Under the pieces are notes generated by a model, which made no database searches, was not told where the DNA came from, and saw only the letters and a program-made list of their open reading frames with translations. A program made the translations under genes and the position numbers. Of a stretch of DNA of 37,635 nt, positions 21,197 through 29,298 are shown piece after piece (the first letter of the stretch is position 1; the number at the start of each line of letters is the position of its first letter). The DNA is taken from NCBI GenBank assembly GCA_003598085.1, contig QZKU01000043.1, positions 1 through 37,635 of the forward strand. Direction: 5' to 3'. The DNA comes from Candidatus Abyssobacteria bacterium SURF_5 (lineage in GTDB: Bacteria > Abyssobacteria > SURF-5).

Positions 21197-22021
21197 ATGC
21201 GTATTGACCAGGAGCTGATAAAAAATCTGGAGGCGCAGGCAAAAATCGTTCGCAGGGACATCATTCAGATGCTGACGAAGGCAGCTTCCGGGCATCCCGG
21301 CGGCAGCCTCTCATGTGCGGATCTGATTGCTGCGCTTTACTTTCACGTGATGCGTCATGATGCGAAGCGCCCCGATTGGAGCGATCGCGACCGGTTCCTG
21401 CTGTCGAAGGGGCACTGCGCGCCCGCCTGGTACTCGGTGCTCGCCAGAAGCGGCTATTTTCCGGCGACATGGCTTGACGCCTTGCGGAAGCTGAATCACC
21501 CTCTGCAGGGGCATCCCGACATGCTGAAAACGACGGGGGTGGAAATGTCCAGCGGCTCGCTCGGACAGGGGCTTTCCATCGCTAACGGAATGGCATTGGC
21601 GGCCAGGTTGGATCGCAAGAGCTACCGCATTTACGTATTGATGGGCGACGGAGAAATCCAGGAGGGGCAGGTATGGGAAGCCGCCATGACCGCGTCTCAT
21701 CACAAGCTCGACAATCTGTGCGCAATTATTGATAACAACGGATTGCAGATCGACGGTCATACGGAAGAGATAAAATCTCTTGGTTCCATCTCCGAGAAAT
21801 GGATAAGTTTCGGCTGGAACGCCATTGACATAGATGGGCATGACATGCGGCAGATACTCCAGGCACTGAAGATGGCGGAGGAGACCAAGGGCAAACCGTC
21901 GATCATCGTGGCGAAAACGACCAAGGGTAAAGGCGTCTCTTTCATGGAGAACCAGGTGGATTTTCACGGGGTCGCGCCCACGGCGGAAGAATGCGTGAGA
22001 GCTCTGGCGGAATTGGAATAG
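21197..22021 (+). CDS. Transketolase, N-terminal (ThDP-binding) subunit
   Basis: 274 residues, the size of split transketolase alpha subunits. Visible motifs: HPGGSLS around His33, SKGH 70-73, GSLGQGLS 120-127, and the thiamine-diphosphate/Mg motif GDGEIQEGQVWEA (150 on) ending in NNG around 180-182. It transfers two-carbon ketol units in the non-oxidative pentose phosphate pathway, and needs the C-terminal subunit encoded 13 bases downstream. GGAG lies 10 bases before the ATG. First gene of a long operon that also encodes RpiB, another pentose-phosphate enzyme. Confidence 0.95.
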   Translation: MRIDQELIKNLEAQAKIVRRDIIQMLTKAASGHPGGSLSCADLIAALYFHVMRHDAKRPDWSDRDRFLLSKGHCAPAWYSVLARSGYFPATWLDALRKLNHPLQGHPDMLKTTGVEMSSGSLGQGLSIANGMALAARLDRKSYRIYVLMGDGEIQEGQVWEAAMTASHHKLDNLCAIIDNNGLQIDGHTEEIKSLGSISEKWISFGWNAIDIDGHDMRQILQALKMAEETKGKPSIIVAKTTKGKGVSFMENQVDFHGVAPTAEECVRALAELE

Positions 22022-22034
22022 TGGGAGAGAAAAC

Positions 22035-22985
22035 ATGCTGAAGGTGAAGGAGAAGGTGGCCACTCGCGACGCATATGGCAGCGCACTGGTTCTGCTTGGA
22101 GAGCGGAATCCCAACATCGTTGTTCTCGATGCCGATCTCGCCAAATCGACCAAAACGATTAAATTCAAAAACAAGTTTCCCGACCGATTTTTCGACATGG
22201 GCATCGCAGAGGCCGATATGATGGGGACGGCGGCAGGATTGGCCGCCGCCGGGAAGATCGCCTTTGCCAGCACGTTCGCTATCTTCGCCACCGGCCGCGC
22301 CTGGGAACAGATACGCAATTCCATATGTTACACGAACCTGAACGTGAAGATAGCCGCGTCGCATGCCGGCATAGCAGTCGGGCCCGACGGCTCCTCTCAT
22401 CAGTCGATCGAAGATATTGCAATCATGCGCGTGATTCCGAACATGAAGATCGTGGTGCCAGCCGATGGGACAGAAACAGAGCAGGCTGTGGCGGCGCTTG
22501 CAGAGACGCCGGGGCCGGCGTATCTACGTCTGGGAAGGTCGGCGGTTCCCTTCATCTATGACAGCTCTTACCGGTTCACTTTGGGGAAAGCATCGGTGCT
22601 GCGGGAAGGGTCGGATGTGGCGATCGTCGCCGCCGGCACCATGGTGCAACCGGCTCTCAAAGCCGCCGATATCCTTTCGGAGGAGCGCATAGAGGCGCGG
22701 GTAATCAACATGAGCAGCATTAAGCCGATCGACCGCGAAGCCATAGTCGCGGCCGCACAGGAGACGGCGGGGATTGTGACGGCTGAAGAGCATAGCATAA
22801 TCGGCGGGCTCGGCGGAGCGGTTGCCGAGGTGGTGGGCGAAACGGCGCCTGCGCCGGTCGTACGGATCGGCGTTCGCGATGTGTTTGGCCAGTCGGGAGA
22901 AGCCGGCGAATTGATGGAATTTTATGGGCTTACTGCGGGGAAGATAGCCGAGGCGGCGTCCCGCATCGTCTCGCAAAAACGGTAG
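22035..22985 (+). CDS. Transketolase, C-terminal (Pyr and C-domain) subunit
   Basis: 316 residues. It contains the pyrimidine-binding domain with the conserved acid in RFFDMGIAEADMMGTAAGLA, ASHAGIAVGPDGSSHQSIED, and the regulatory C-terminal domain (AGIVTAEEHSIIGGLGGAVAE). It pairs with the preceding gene to form the active transketolase. Separate subunits are common in anaerobes and archaea. GGGAGAG precedes the ATG. Confidence 0.95.
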   Translation: MLKVKEKVATRDAYGSALVLLGERNPNIVVLDADLAKSTKTIKFKNKFPDRFFDMGIAEADMMGTAAGLAAAGKIAFASTFAIFATGRAWEQIRNSICYTNLNVKIAASHAGIAVGPDGSSHQSIEDIAIMRVIPNMKIVVPADGTETEQAVAALAETPGPAYLRLGRSAVPFIYDSSYRFTLGKASVLREGSDVAIVAAGTMVQPALKAADILSEERIEARVINMSSIKPIDREAIVAAAQETAGIVTAEEHSIIGGLGGAVAEVVGETAPAPVVRIGVRDVFGQSGEAGELMEFYGLTAGKIAEAASRIVSQKR

Positions 22986-22990
22986 CAGCC

Positions 22991-23683
22991 ATGATCATCA
23001 CGCTGGACCTCTGCTTGCGGTGCGGAGGCTTCTCGATAATCAGCGGCCTGAACCTTCACATAGAGAAGGGCGAGTTCATTTTCATTTGCGGACAGGCCGG
23101 CGCCGGCAAATCTTCGCTGATGCGCGTTCTGGCGTTGCAGGAGCTGCCGGCCGAGGGGCGTGTCCTTATCGATGGGACCGATGTAAACCAGATTTGGCGA
23201 AATGGCTTGACTGATTACAGGCGAACCATCGGGGTGATCTTTCAGGAGGATCGGCTCCTCTCGCGTCGCACAATAGCCGAAAATATCGATATCTCTCTCG
23301 AGCTTGCCGGTTGGCGCGCGGCGGAGGCGCGAAGGGAGACGAACGAATATCTGAAGGAAATCGGTCTCTTCGGCAAAGCGGACTTTTATTGCGACCGGAT
23401 ATCCGAGAACGAGAGACGGTTGTTGAAAATCTGCCGGGCGCTTGCGCGCCGCCCAAAGATCGTTCTTGCCGACGAGCCATACGAGGGGCTCGATCGACGG
23501 TCGGCGGAGAAAGCGGCGTCCCTGTTTCGCAAAGCTCATCTGAGGGGTTCGACCATTGTGATTGCGACCCATCATATCGAGTGTGCCGGACAGGCGGGCA
23601 AGCGCGCTATCATGCTCGATTCGGGTGAAGCCCGTCCTAGCGTTACAGCGTCCGGCCTTCAATATGTGCGGGAATTGACGTGA
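22991..23683 (+). CDS. ftsE: FtsE-type ABC ATPase with degenerate signature motif
   Basis: 230 residues. Walker A GQAGAGKS (34-41), Q-loop Gln85, Walker B IVLADE (157-162), D-loop GLD and H-switch His194 are intact, so ATP binding and hydrolysis look possible. The ABC signature, LSGGEQ in ordinary FtsE, reads ISENER (137-142), an unusual loss of both glycines. The gene starts 5 bases after the transketolase and ends 3 bases before ftsX-envC, the standard FtsEX arrangement. FtsE drives conformational change in FtsX to activate septal amidases through EnvC. Assignment rests on family similarity plus this context; a generic LolD/MacB-type ATPase is less likely. Confidence 0.85.
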   Translation: MIITLDLCLRCGGFSIISGLNLHIEKGEFIFICGQAGAGKSSLMRVLALQELPAEGRVLIDGTDVNQIWRNGLTDYRRTIGVIFQEDRLLSRRTIAENIDISLELAGWRAAEARRETNEYLKEIGLFGKADFYCDRISENERRLLKICRALARRPKIVLADEPYEGLDRRSAEKAASLFRKAHLRGSTIVIATHHIECAGQAGKRAIMLDSGEARPSVTASGLQYVRELT

Positions 23684-23686
23684 GAC

Positions 23687-25693
23687 ATGCGCGAATTCAG
23701 TTTTGCCGTGCGAGAAGGCATCCGCAATTTTCGACGTGACAAGACCCTCGGTTTTGCGGTGGCTGGAAGCGTCGCTATCGCCGTGTTTGCGCTCGGCGCC
23801 GTCGCGCTTTCCGCCGCTAATGTCAATTTCTTCCTCAAAGAGTGGGAAGACAAGGTTGAGCTGGTTGCGTTCCTTCGACGCGATGTGCCGGCGGAGGTTT
23901 CTCAATCAATAATCGAGCGAATTCGGGCGCTTCCAGAAGTGAAAGAAGCCGGCCTCGTTTCGGAGCAGGAGCTGAGAAGGCACCTCTCCGAGCAGGCGGA
24001 GAATTCCAAAAATCTGGAGCGAATCTCGCTTGATGAACTCTTGCCGCCGACCGTTGTGATCCGCCTGGCCAGAGGCAGTCGCGATATTTCGCAGATTCAG
24101 CAGTTGGCGGAGCAGGTGGGCCGCCTCGAGGGAGTTGATGAAGTAAAGTTTGAGAAAACGCTGCTCGAGCGTTATTTCCAGTTTCGGCGCGAGATGACGA
24201 TAGCCGCTATCGGAATGAATGTGTTCTGGCTGTTCATATTCAGCGTCGTCATCATCAACATCGCCCGCTTGGCTTCCGCGGCGCGAGCCGATGAGATACG
24301 CACTCTGCGGATGCTCGGCGCGAGCGGCAGCCTGGTGCGAAAAATCTTCAGTATCGAGAGTTTTGTGCAGGGGCTGACCGGGGCGATGTTCGGGATCATA
24401 TTGCTCGTTCTTCTTCTTTTTCTGATCTCGAACGAAATGAATCGCCCGCTTCAGGTTCCGGTTTTCCTCATTATTGCCGCGTTCAGCGCGGGACCTTTTC
24501 TGGCGGTGCTTGCGAACTGGCTGATCTCCCGGAAGGCGCTCTCCGCATTTTCGATTGCGCTTCTCCTGCTGGTCGTGTGCCAAAGTCCGCTCCGCGCGAA
24601 TGAACTCGACAGCGAAGTCGCGCGCTATCAAAAAGAACTGGAGCGGCTGAGCCTCGAACTGCAACAGAACCAATCGGTGGTAACCGAGATAACCGAGCAA
24701 GAACGGACTCTTATAGGGGGGCTGGAGAAGATCGAAAAGGAAATCGATCTTCTGGAGAAAGAGCATTCAGTAGCCGTGGGAAAGAAAACCGCCAATAAAG
24801 CGGCGATCCACGTCGGCCAAAAGCAGCTTTCAGAATATGAAAGGAAACTGGTCGAGTCCCGCCGCGAACTGGAGCGGTGGCTCAGAGAACTGTGCGTTCA
24901 GAAAATGCCGTCCGTCGCAGAAGTGATTTTTTTCGATATTCCGCATTCGGAACTCATCGTCCGCAACAAGATAATTGACCTGCTGGCCCAGAAGGAAGCC
25001 GAAGCGCACGAACGAACCGAAGAAATCCGCCGGCAATACGTCCAACAGGAGGACGATTTGCGCAAACGATCGGAGTTGGATACTTTATATATTGAAACAA
25101 ACAAGCTGCGTGTTCAGCAGTTGCTCGAGAAAAAAAGGCACCGCGAAGATCTTTTGAACCAGGTGCGCCAACAAAAGACAATCTACCTGGCCGCGATCAA
25201 CGACCTTGAGGCCTCTTCACGAAATCTGGAGCAATTGATCAGGTCAAGCAAGGCTGCACGAGGCCCCGCCGCCGCTCCCGTGCCGTTTCAACAGATGAAA
25301 GGCTTGCTTCCGTGGCCTGTTACGGGGGAGGTCGCTGCTCCATTTGGGCGAATTCAGAATCCGGACTCGCACACGTATACGCGGCATATGGGAATTGACA
25401 TCTCATCGCCTCTCGGGGCGGAAATCAGTGTCATTCATGATGGAGCCGTAGTCTATTCCGACTGGTTCAGGGGATACGGCAAGCTCATTATTCTCGATCA
25501 CGGCGACGGTTATAGCAGCGTGTACGCGCATTGCTCGGAGATTTTTGTGAAGAAAGGGGAATTCATTGGGGCCGGCACTGTAGTAGGTCTTGTCGGCGAA
25601 ACCGGCTCTTTGAAAGGGCCATACCTCTATTTCGAAATTCGGGAAAACGGCCAGCCCGTGGATCCGCTGGTCTGGCTTCAAAGGAGGACGTAA
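23687..25693 (+). CDS. FtsX-EnvC fusion: division permease with LytM-type amidase activator
   Basis: 668 residues in one uninterrupted frame. Residues 1-283 are FtsX: cytoplasmic N-tail, TM1 (about 21-45), periplasmic domain (46-170), TM2 (171-196), the EIRTLRMLGAS motif after it, TM3 (223-248) and TM4 (256-280). Where FtsX should stop, a signal-peptide-like segment follows (ALSAFSIALLLLVVCQSPLRA, about 284-304), then a long coiled coil (305-520) and a C-terminal LytM/M23 domain (540-668). The LytM HxH is YLY (646-648) and the ending YLYFEIRENGQPVDPLVWL resembles E. coli EnvC, so it should activate amidases, not cut. The topology would place the coiled coil and LytM domain in the periplasm, with the linker as TM5 or a cleavable signal. 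No ATG and no Shine-Dalgarno mark a separate envC start; only a GTG at 24506 is possible. Confidence 0.9.
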   Translation: MREFSFAVREGIRNFRRDKTLGFAVAGSVAIAVFALGAVALSAANVNFFLKEWEDKVELVAFLRRDVPAEVSQSIIERIRALPEVKEAGLVSEQELRRHLSEQAENSKNLERISLDELLPPTVVIRLARGSRDISQIQQLAEQVGRLEGVDEVKFEKTLLERYFQFRREMTIAAIGMNVFWLFIFSVVIINIARLASAARADEIRTLRMLGASGSLVRKIFSIESFVQGLTGAMFGIILLVLLLFLISNEMNRPLQVPVFLIIAAFSAGPFLAVLANWLISRKALSAFSIALLLLVVCQSPLRANELDSEVARYQKELERLSLELQQNQSVVTEITEQERTLIGGLEKIEKEIDLLEKEHSVAVGKKTANKAAIHVGQKQLSEYERKLVESRRELERWLRELCVQKMPSVAEVIFFDIPHSELIVRNKIIDLLAQKEAEAHERTEEIRRQYVQQEDDLRKRSELDTLYIETNKLRVQQLLEKKRHREDLLNQVRQQKTIYLAAINDLEASSRNLEQLIRSSKAARGPAAAPVPFQQMKGLLPWPVTGEVAAPFGRIQNPDSHTYTRHMGIDISSPLGAEISVIHDGAVVYSDWFRGYGKLIILDHGDGYSSVYAHCSEIFVKKGEFIGAGTVVGLVGETGSLKGPYLYFEIRENGQPVDPLVWLQRRT

Positions 25694-27124
25694 ATGCAAC
25701 GCAACCGCAGTCAGTTCGTTCTGTTTTTGGTCTCGGTCCTCATGCTGGGGCTCCTGTTCGGCAACAGCCTCTCAGGATATGTCGCGGCCCAAACAGGATC
25801 GACATACACCGACTTGGAAATCTTCTCGGACGCTCTCAGCATCGTTCAGAATGAATATGTCGAGCAGGTGCCGACCAAAACATTGATCTACGGAGCTATG
25901 AAAGGAATGCTGGACGGCCTCGATCCGCACAGCCAGTTCATGCCTCCGGACACCTATAAGGAATTGAAAGTGGAGACCGAGGGCCATTTCGGCGGCCTCG
26001 GCATCGTTATCAGCCTTGATGAAAACAAGATTCTTACTGTCGTCTCGCCCATTGAAGATACGCCGGCATTCAAGGCGGGCGTTCAGGCGAACGACAAGAT
26101 CATTAAAATCGAGGGTGAAAGCACGCAGGGATTGGTGCTCGAAGAGGCCGTGAAAAAACTGAGAGGACCGAAAGGCTCGAAAGTGGCGATCACCGTGCTC
26201 CGTCTCAGCGACGATCCAAAGGAGCTTCCGCAGGAGCTCGAGTTCGTGCTGACCAGGGCCGATATCCAGATTCGCAGCGTCACGCACGAGATGATCGAAG
26301 AAAAGATCGGCCGCATCCGCCTGCGCGAGTTCAGTGAGAAAACCGCGCTCGAGCTGCACAAGTCGTTGGAAGATCTCAAGGCGCAGGGGATGCGCTCGCT
26401 CGTCCTCGATTTGCGCAATAATCCGGGCGGCCTCCTCAACGTCGCAGCCGACGTCGCCGACGAGTTCTTCGAGAAAGGCCAGTTGCTGGTCTACACCGAG
26501 TCGCGCCATGCCGATCAGAACCTGAAATTCAAGGCGAAATCGAAGGCCGCCATCGGACCCGACATCCCGATCGTCGTCCTGGTTAACGGAGGAAGCGCAA
26601 GCGCATCGGAAATCGTTGCGGGCGCATTGAAGGACACCAGACGAGCTGTCATCATGGGCGAGAAAACCTTTGGGAAGGGTTCTGTTCAGAGCATTATTCC
26701 GCTGAGTGATGGATCCGCCCTCCGCTTGACAACTGCCAAATATCTCACCCCCGGCGGCAGCTCGATCAATGGGACCGGCATCCTGCCGGACATCGAGGTG
26801 AAATTGACGAAGGAACAAATGACCCAATTGATGACCACGATGGAAGTGCCGGGCTCAGTCAAGCGGCAGACGGAACAGGGCGAGCAGAAGGTCGTTGACA
26901 TCCAGTTGCAGAGAGCCATCGAGCTGCTCCAGGGCTATGATATCTTCAAGACACTCGAGCAGAATATCAGCGTCGCGAAAATGAATATCGAAGAGCAGGG
27001 GAGGGATGCCGGCACGAATCCGGAAAGCGCCGCCGCGCCGGCTAACGAGGAGGAATCGCTCGAAGGAAAGGATTTCCTCATCGAGACCCCCGGCGAATTA
27101 GAGGAAGTGCCGCTTGAAAAATAA
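25694..27124 (+). CDS. ctpA: C-terminal processing peptidase (S41, CtpA-like)
   Basis: 476 residues. ATG 25694 abuts the TAA of the fusion gene and AGGAGG lies at 25682-25687. A signal peptide or anchor spans about 8-30, a PDZ domain about 95-185 ([11 protein letters not shown]), and the S41 protease core follows. Catalytic Ser303 lies in [11 protein letters not shown] and Lys328 in [11 protein letters not shown], with the 25-residue spacing of Tsp-type dyads. The tail (about 430-476) is acidic. Such periplasmic proteases trim or degrade envelope proteins including murein hydrolases. Position just after ftsEX-envC suggests a role in controlling that system or its amidases (inference). Confidence 0.92.
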
Positions 27125-28480: not shown

Positions 28481-28494
28481 GGAATATATGATCC

Positions 28495-28533
28495 TGTAGG
28501 GGCATTCCGCGCTTCGCGGGACCATGCCCGAAA
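28495..28533 (+). repeat. Class-B REP-like palindrome, upstream of RAYT (copy 1)
   Basis: A TGTAGGGGCAT head, inner stem CCGCGCTTCGCGG and tail ATGCCCGAAA. GTAG at the hairpin foot is the tetranucleotide typical of REPs recognised by RAYT enzymes. It begins 14 bases after the rdgB stop. Confidence 0.85.
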
Positions 28534-28551
28534 GGCCGAAACAAATGAACC

Positions 28552-28590
28552 TGTAGGGGCATCCTGCGCTTCGCGGGACCGTGTCCGAAA
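28552..28590 (+). repeat. Class-B REP-like palindrome, upstream of RAYT (copy 2)
   Basis: The same layout as the copy at 28495 and in the same orientation, 18 bases after it: TGTAGGGGCAT, CTGCGCTTCGCGG, GTGTCCGAAA. It ends 18 bases before the RAYT ATG. Confidence 0.85.
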
Positions 28591-28608
28591 AAGCCATACA
28601 ACACGCCC

Positions 28609-29298
28609 ATGAATGACAATAAACCGAACGCTACTCTTCCAAAACGCCGCTCTCTACGGCTAAAGGCATTCGATTACACGCAATCAGGCGCGTATTTCGT
28701 CACAGTCTGCACTCAAGGGAAGAATGACCTCTTCGGGACGATCGTAGATGGACAAATGCAGGCGACGGAATTTGGGCGCGTCGTCGGCGACTGCTGGCAG
28801 GCGCTGCCGAACCATTTCCCGAACGTGCAACTGGATGCGTTCATCGTTATGCCTAATCATATTCACGGCATTCTCATTATTGATTCACCCGAGCGGGCAC
28901 GGCATGCCGTGCCCCTACAATCACGTGTGCTCGAATCATCCGGAAAATTTGCTATACCTGTCTCCGGCGCTCTTTCCACGATAATACGTTCTTTCAAATC
29001 GGCTGCAACCAAACGCATAAACGAATGCGGTAGGGGTGCAGCATCCCGTGCGCAGAAAATTTGGCAACGCAATTATTTTGAACATGTCATCCGAAACGAT
29101 GAATCATTAGACAAGATCCGGGAATACATTTTAAAGAATCCCTTTCAATGGGAATTCGATCGTGAAAACCCGTTTGCTGTGGCCGAAACCGCGGAATCAT
29201 CGGCAAAGCTGAAATATTTCCCTGTAGGGGCATCCCGCGCTTCGCGGGACCGTGCCCGAAAAGCCGTGCTTTCCGCGCGCGGCGCCCGAAAGCAATGA
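28609..29298 (+). CDS. REP-associated tyrosine transposase (RAYT, Y1/HUH, IS200-like)
   Basis: 229 residues. The N-terminal SLRLKAFDYTQSGAYFVTVC is the Y1 transposase start. The HUH metal motif is His84-Ile-His86 in MPNHIHGIL, and Tyr173 in REYILKNP is the likely nucleophile. RAYTs cut and rejoin single-stranded REP DNA at the hairpin foot. Class-B REPs with GTAG feet lie on both sides. Three repeat-like segments form coding sequence: residues about 96-104, 141-149 and 205-218. The first two lie between the HUH and Tyr motifs, the last in the tail. No Shine-Dalgarno is visible. Its stop overlaps the sua5 ATG (ATGA), so downstream translation may be coupled to it. Catalytic residues appear intact. 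Confidence 0.88.
   Translation: MNDNKPNATLPKRRSLRLKAFDYTQSGAYFVTVCTQGKNDLFGTIVDGQMQATEFGRVVGDCWQALPNHFPNVQLDAFIVMPNHIHGILIIDSPERARHAVPLQSRVLESSGKFAIPVSGALSTIIRSFKSAATKRINECGRGAASRAQKIWQRNYFEHVIRNDESLDKIREYILKNPFQWEFDRENPFAVAETAESSAKLKYFPVGASRASRDRARKAVLSARGARKQ
28895..28920 (-). repeat. Class-A REP-like palindrome inside the RAYT coding sequence (inverted)
   Basis: The perfect palindrome GGGCACGGCATGCCGTGCCC followed by CTACAA, the reverse complement of the TTGTAG head. It is translated as part of the RAYT (residues about 96-104) without breaking the frame. Confidence 0.85.
29030..29054 (+). repeat. REP-like segment inside RAYT, divergent class
   Basis: GGTAGGGGTGCAGCATCCCG followed by TGCGC has the GTAGGGG head and a GTGC tail with a new core. 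It encodes RAYT residues about 141-149 (GRGAASRAQ). It is a single copy here, so class membership is tentative. Confidence 0.5.
29223..29261 (+). repeat. Class-B REP-like palindrome encoding the RAYT C-terminal tail
   Basis: TGTAGGGGCATCCCGCGC followed by TTCGCGGGACCG and TGCCCGAAA. It lies in the same orientation as the two copies upstream of the gene and is translated as PVGASRASRDRARK. Confidence 0.85.

Follow-up and report, generated by a model that had tools for sequence, protein, structure and literature searches.

An in-frame fusion of ftsX to an envC-type activator gene in Candidatus Abyssobacteria

We report here that in Candidatus Abyssobacteria, a little-known group from the deep subsurface, the gene encoding the division permease FtsX is fused in frame to a gene for an EnvC-type amidase activator, a fusion that had been proposed from a single stretch of DNA and that proves to be real and conserved in three genera of the lineage. 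In FtsEX-EnvC, the standard textbook example, an ABC machine passes force to an activator that is a protein of its own in the periplasm; where nature encodes FtsX-EnvC in one gene, permease and activator are linked genetically. We argue that the product of the fused gene is probably a precursor that is cut by signal peptidase I, a reading to which we assign a probability of about 0.6. No described FtsX-EnvC fusion was found in the open-access literature searched, in agreement with the first-pass annotation, whose author knew of no such single chain, and on that literature the fusion is apparently undescribed.

The fused gene and its two halves

In the window, i.e. the whole 37,635-nucleotide stretch of contig QZKU01000043.1 (Ca. 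Abyssobacteria bacterium SURF_5, genome G000) that was analysed, the fused ftsX-envC gene lies on the forward strand, as do all features named below by their coordinates in this and the following sections on the gene. It occupies positions 23687-25693, from an ATG at 23687 to a stop at 25691-25693, and reading of the frame bore out that its 668 codons (668 aa) are uninterrupted by any internal stop. Pfam places three domains above the curated cut-offs, namely FtsX_ECD (PF18075) at residues 57-153 (2e-9), FtsX (PF02687) at 179-286 (9e-11) and Peptidase_M23 at 566-660 (4e-30). The first corresponds to the FtsX periplasmic domain (23855-24145), which is preceded by TM1 (approximately residues 21-44, 23747-23818) and followed by TM2-TM4 (approximately residues 172-279, 24200-24523). 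Hydropathy peaks at residues 32, 181, 238 and 266 mark the four FtsX TMs and, together with the Pfam domains, confirm that this FtsX is complete, as had been claimed; a fifth peak stands at 293.

Against TIGR00439 the FtsX half scores 1.6e-34, which is under the equivalog cut-off, and judged by its sequence it is a divergent FtsX member: the ECD and the permease domain, the four TM helices and an ftsE gene adjacent upstream are all present. Absent are the usual short cytoplasmic C-terminus and the stop after TM4; the frame runs on into EnvC, and this continuation is the new feature of the fused FtsX. In each of the solved complexes 8i6o, 8tzk and 8hd0, the fused protein matches FtsX as well as EnvC. 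The proposed location between ftsE and ctpA likewise held, given the domain matches of both neighbours. The gene for FtsE, the ABC ATPase partner of FtsX (22991-23683), was recognized by alignment with relatives and by its match to TIGR02673 (7e-53, below the cut-off of that model), and the gene that follows the fusion (25694-27124) encodes a processing protease of the S41 type that is ctpA-like; such a gene also follows envC in many relatives where envC stands separate.

The EnvC half was described from an AF2 model of that part (51 rows, mean pLDDT 87); a model of the full-length chain (3 sequences, mean pLDDT 55.6) was too poor for topology, and of that model the coiled-coil region alone was used. 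In the EnvC-part model, a long helix I (residues 305-404, 24599-24898) leads to a hairpin tip (approximately residues 405-419, 24899-24943), which is followed by long helix II with a restraining-arm-like helix (residues 420-523, 24944-25255) and, as identified by Pfam and by fold match, by a degenerate LytM/M23 domain (residues 537-668, 25295-25690). An antiparallel coiled-coil hairpin (in the model) and then a LytM domain, the features expected of an EnvC, are therefore both present. The best Foldseek matches were V. cholerae EnvC from its complex with FtsEX (8tzl_E, 9.5e-21) and FtsX-bound E. coli EnvC (6tpi_A, 1.4e-16), matches that over the full length rest on local similarity, with a global TM of only 0.35-0.40, and the LytM model alone agrees with the E. 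coli EnvC LytM domain 4bh5 with a TM of 0.94 and an rmsd of 1.6. By analogy, the tip at 405-419 would be the counterpart of the EnvC region gripped by FtsX (PMC7668044, PMC11627006). H567, D571 and H615 of the zinc site are kept, and the HxH motif is replaced by YLY (residues 646-648) here and by FLY in both fused relatives described below, so that each of the three fusions lacks one LytM zinc ligand. With its zinc site incomplete, the LytM domain of the fused chain is predicted to be catalytically dead; in the separate EnvC proteins of relatives it ranges from intact to degenerate. The coiled coil and the degenerate LytM domain seen on first inspection were in this way recovered, the former as the modelled helices 305-404 and 420-523 and the latter as the lost HxH.

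Occurrence of the fusion

The same uninterrupted fusion was found in both other genomes of the phylum surveyed, that is in 3 of 3 genomes, which represent three genera of one family. The two relatives are SURF_17 of Ca. Abyssobacteria (G002, QZKI01000111.1) and a MAG from groundwater that is on record under Ca. Poribacteria (G001, JACRIR010000214.1); they are independent assemblies, and their fused proteins are 50% and 47% identical to that of the window. The groundwater MAG falls in the family of SURF_17 and has the fusion, and its Ca. Poribacteria label is probably wrong; NCBI treats Ca. Abyssobacteria as a class within Ca. Hydrogenedentota (see also PMC6121073).

One objection would be a sequencing or assembly indel that merged two genes, and it may be noted that outside the phylum the genes are separate and sometimes share a frame, parted by a single stop. 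However, three independent MAGs from different genera contain the whole gene uninterrupted, and the junction residues have diverged and are still in frame. The same stop-free fusion in three genera is thus neither chance nor artefact, and the indel is refuted for practical purposes.

Our survey comprised 386 genomes, most families being represented by one or a few, and further phylum-wide searches covered small phyla. The fused profile was matched strongly by 108 of the 386 genomes, and only in the three Abyssobacteria did the match run end to end with no stop between the halves; outside the phylum, no uninterrupted fusion was seen among the strong matches listed in the 386-genome survey. In the 31 loci that we read, the majority of which had frames of suspicious length, ftsX outside the phylum always ended after TM4 and envC, where found, was in its own frame. 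Long frames at other EnvC matches (up to 775 aa) were considered as candidate fusions and rejected, since in every one that was read the extra length came from a shadow frame, ftsX itself stopping after TM4 in a different frame. At 54 loci with separate ftsX and envC genes, envC was in frame +2 at 35, typically with a 4-base overlap of the ftsX stop, and in the same frame at 10; the ftsE-ftsX-envC-ctpA order of the window recurs at 23 separate loci. The occurrence of the separate genes as neighbours in the same order elsewhere argues that the fusion is an in-place join of adjacent ftsX and envC, and sequence comparison indicates that it is fixed in the Ca. Abyssobacteria lineage. A pre-fusion type of arrangement is plausibly represented by four genomes (G360, G366, G386 and G388) in which ftsX and envC are in register and parted by a stop and a short spacer. 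Relatives with separate genes and no fusion, which the first-pass annotation would have counted against a true fusion, have no bearing on it, because those with separate genes are distant and all three genomes of the phylum are fused.

The FtsE partner

The FtsE proteins of the three fusion genomes depart from those of their relatives. Their signature reads ISENE in the window (23399-23413) and VSENE in both related genera, where other relatives have LSGGE or close variants, and all three have EPYEGLD where most relatives have EPTGNLD; in G001 the Q-loop Gln is in addition replaced by Pro. On the alignments, the signature change is a previously unreported companion of the fusion, the two together counting as one evolutionary event sampled in three genomes. 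In other ABC proteins, ATP hydrolysis falls when the second signature glycine is replaced (PMC4459825). The loss of the signature glycines alongside the fusion makes the lineage a natural test of the extent to which the system needs ATP hydrolysis.

These changes could be taken to mean that FtsEX is decaying or repurposed here and that the fusion is tolerated since gating no longer matters. Against this stand the Walker A and Walker B motifs, the catalytic Glu and the H-loop His, all kept in the FtsE of the three genomes, as well as the LytM domain, 68-75% identical between genera, and the fact that the fused chain is the sole FtsX_ECD protein in each of the three genomes. We therefore consider decay highly improbable.

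The junction between the halves

The two halves meet at 24530-24598, where hydropathy and sequence comparison delimit R282 and K283, a hydrophobic core (residues 284-298) and a c-region (299-304). The fifth hydropathy peak and these n-h-c features substantiate the signal-peptide-like segment that had been placed at about 284-304. The motif of the suggested cleavage site, PLRA|NE, is there as well, an exact count putting the putative cut after A304 (PLRA304|N305E). From its sequence, the junction could be a signal peptide with a possible signal peptidase I cut at this position or, alternatively, could act as a fifth TM.

At each of the three fused junctions a charged residue is kept, the core measures 13-22 residues and position -1 is A (PLRA|NE, GFA|QE and VLA|QT). 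In relatives, at 50 loci, the separate envC opens with a signal peptide whose core is 11-14 residues long (interquartile range), and the fused junctions appear close to these signal peptides. Their hydropathy is 1.9-2.3 versus 2.3-2.7 for the FtsX TMs, and among the three genera their length differs by 2 residues, in frame, with the same order of domains.

The usual separate secretion of EnvC with an N-terminal signal peptide is absent here, as EnvC has no start of its own and the signal-like segment is internal. There is no ATG in the surrounding 58 codons in any of the three fused genes, and the few GTG/TTG codons near the junctions lack a Shine-Dalgarno sequence and occupy positions that are unconserved across the three genes, which argues that the fused chain is most likely the sole form in which EnvC is synthesized. 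GTG 274 in the window gene and GTG 278 in that of G002 would yield plausible signal peptides, so that an ordinary secreted EnvC might also, or mainly, be produced from an internal start. Neither GTG is preceded by a Shine-Dalgarno sequence, however, and G001 has no start codon there; we regard such a start as very unlikely.

A cut precursor or a tethered chain

We favour a cut precursor over a chain that stays whole. According to this model, one FtsX-EnvC precursor would be translated from the fused gene, FtsX would insert with its four TMs, and the FtsX C-terminal tail would provide the positive n-region (R282 K283) for the former EnvC signal peptide. This internal signal segment would re-enter the Sec pathway, and signal peptidase I would cut after approximately residue 304. 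EnvC would thus be set free in the periplasm where FtsX is made, and in the same quantity. FtsEX would then grip the hairpin tip, as in other diderms, and the degenerate LytM domain would activate periplasmic Amidase_3 enzymes and thereby promote septum splitting. Cleavage, canonical docking and amidase activation are what we infer for the fused system; genes for a type I signal peptidase (Peptidase_S26) and for Amidase_3 are present in 3 of 3 fusion genomes. A precedent exists in the Bradyrhizobium fbcH cytochrome b-c1 precursor, in which a polytopic membrane protein and a periplasmic protein are joined and the internal signal peptide is cut; it works alike, with proteins and function that are unrelated.

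The choice between the two products that had been offered rests chiefly on geometry. In solved complexes, the coiled coil of EnvC touches the TMs and ECDs of FtsX with its hinge (tip) and extends along the central axis (PMC11627006), long helix I of E. coli EnvC being formed by residues 40-123 (PMC7668044). In the AF2 model of the fused chain, a continuous helix of 100 residues, about 150 A long at a rise of 1.5 A each, lies between the junction and the tip at 405-419, and there is no linker. If the chain remained uncut, EnvC would therefore start at the membrane and its tip would lie far from FtsX, the reverse of the polarity in canonical docking. A cut by signal peptidase I would remove this conflict, and since EnvC begins far from the membrane in the solved complexes and no linker exists here, the cut polyprotein fits better and the tethered form fares worse. 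The junction is also the least conserved part of the three chains (24-29% identity, versus 38-48% for TM2-4, 42-52% for the coiled coil and 68-75% for LytM), which suits a disposable signal better than a packed TM. Finally, the solved complexes contain two FtsX per EnvC (PMC7668044, PMC11139282), which speaks against a permanent tether and implies that the 1:1 stoichiometry once expected of either product could apply at most to synthesis and not to the working complex.

If the chain stayed whole, the former signal peptide would serve as a fifth TM and EnvC would remain attached to FtsX for good; it would have to dock otherwise than in E. coli, or onto the FtsX of a neighbouring complex. We consider this rather unlikely. 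The junction cores of G000 and G001 are hydrophobic enough for a TM5 (2.05-2.31) and that of G001, with 22 residues, could span the membrane, which counts against cleavage; moreover, a home-made matrix for cleavage sites, trained on the signal peptides of separate EnvC proteins, could not tell G000 and G002 apart from uncut TM1/TM3 controls and was thus undiscriminating for these two, only G001 scoring well. A tether would replace recruitment, and with the FtsE of this clade devoid of its signature glycines, one could envisage a permanent recruitment that is independent of ATP; E. coli cells that have NlpD separate once EnvC is recruited, even if ATP is not hydrolysed (PMC7343993). A more elaborate version, in which an uncut tethered FtsX-EnvC is paired with an FtsE of altered ATP chemistry and the amidase is gated by a geometry or signal unlike the known mechanotransmission, seems to us decidedly improbable. 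Were the chain uncut, the accepted docking geometry and 2:1 stoichiometry would not be universal; if it is cut, as we favour, it is a polyprotein of a kind rare in the divisome, recognizable by its internal signal peptide.

Comparison with known FtsEX systems

The fused system resembles FtsEX-EnvC of E. coli, P. aeruginosa and V. cholerae (PDB 6TPI, 8HD0, 8I6O and 8TZK/8TZL) in its FtsX with an ECD, its EnvC hairpin, its degenerate LytM domain and the position of ftsE beside ftsX. It differs from them in having one gene for both proteins and a degenerate FtsE signature, whereas theirs are separate chains with one EnvC per two FtsX. With the separate ftsE-ftsX-envC(-ctpA) clusters of many phyla it shares gene order and neighbours; unlike here, the genes of those clusters are in separate frames and often overlap by 4 bases. 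As in FtsEX-RipC (Mycobacterium) and FtsEX-PcsB (Streptococcus), the FtsX ECD is expected to grip a coiled-coil partner, but RipC and PcsB are separate-chain hydrolases with another C-terminal domain (NlpC/P60 and CHAP, respectively; PMC11627006).

Other features of the neighbourhood

Directly upstream of ftsE, at 21197-22985, transketolase is encoded as separate N- and C-terminal genes, and downstream of ctpA lie rph and a gene of the Ham1/RdgB family. Farther on, a 53-base repeat occurs in three copies that are 81-89% alike (28486-28538, 28543-28595 and 29214-29266). The copies flank, and overlap the end of, a Y1_Tnp (IS200-like/REP-associated) transposase ORF at 28609-29298, and the whole looks like an element of the REP/RAYT type.
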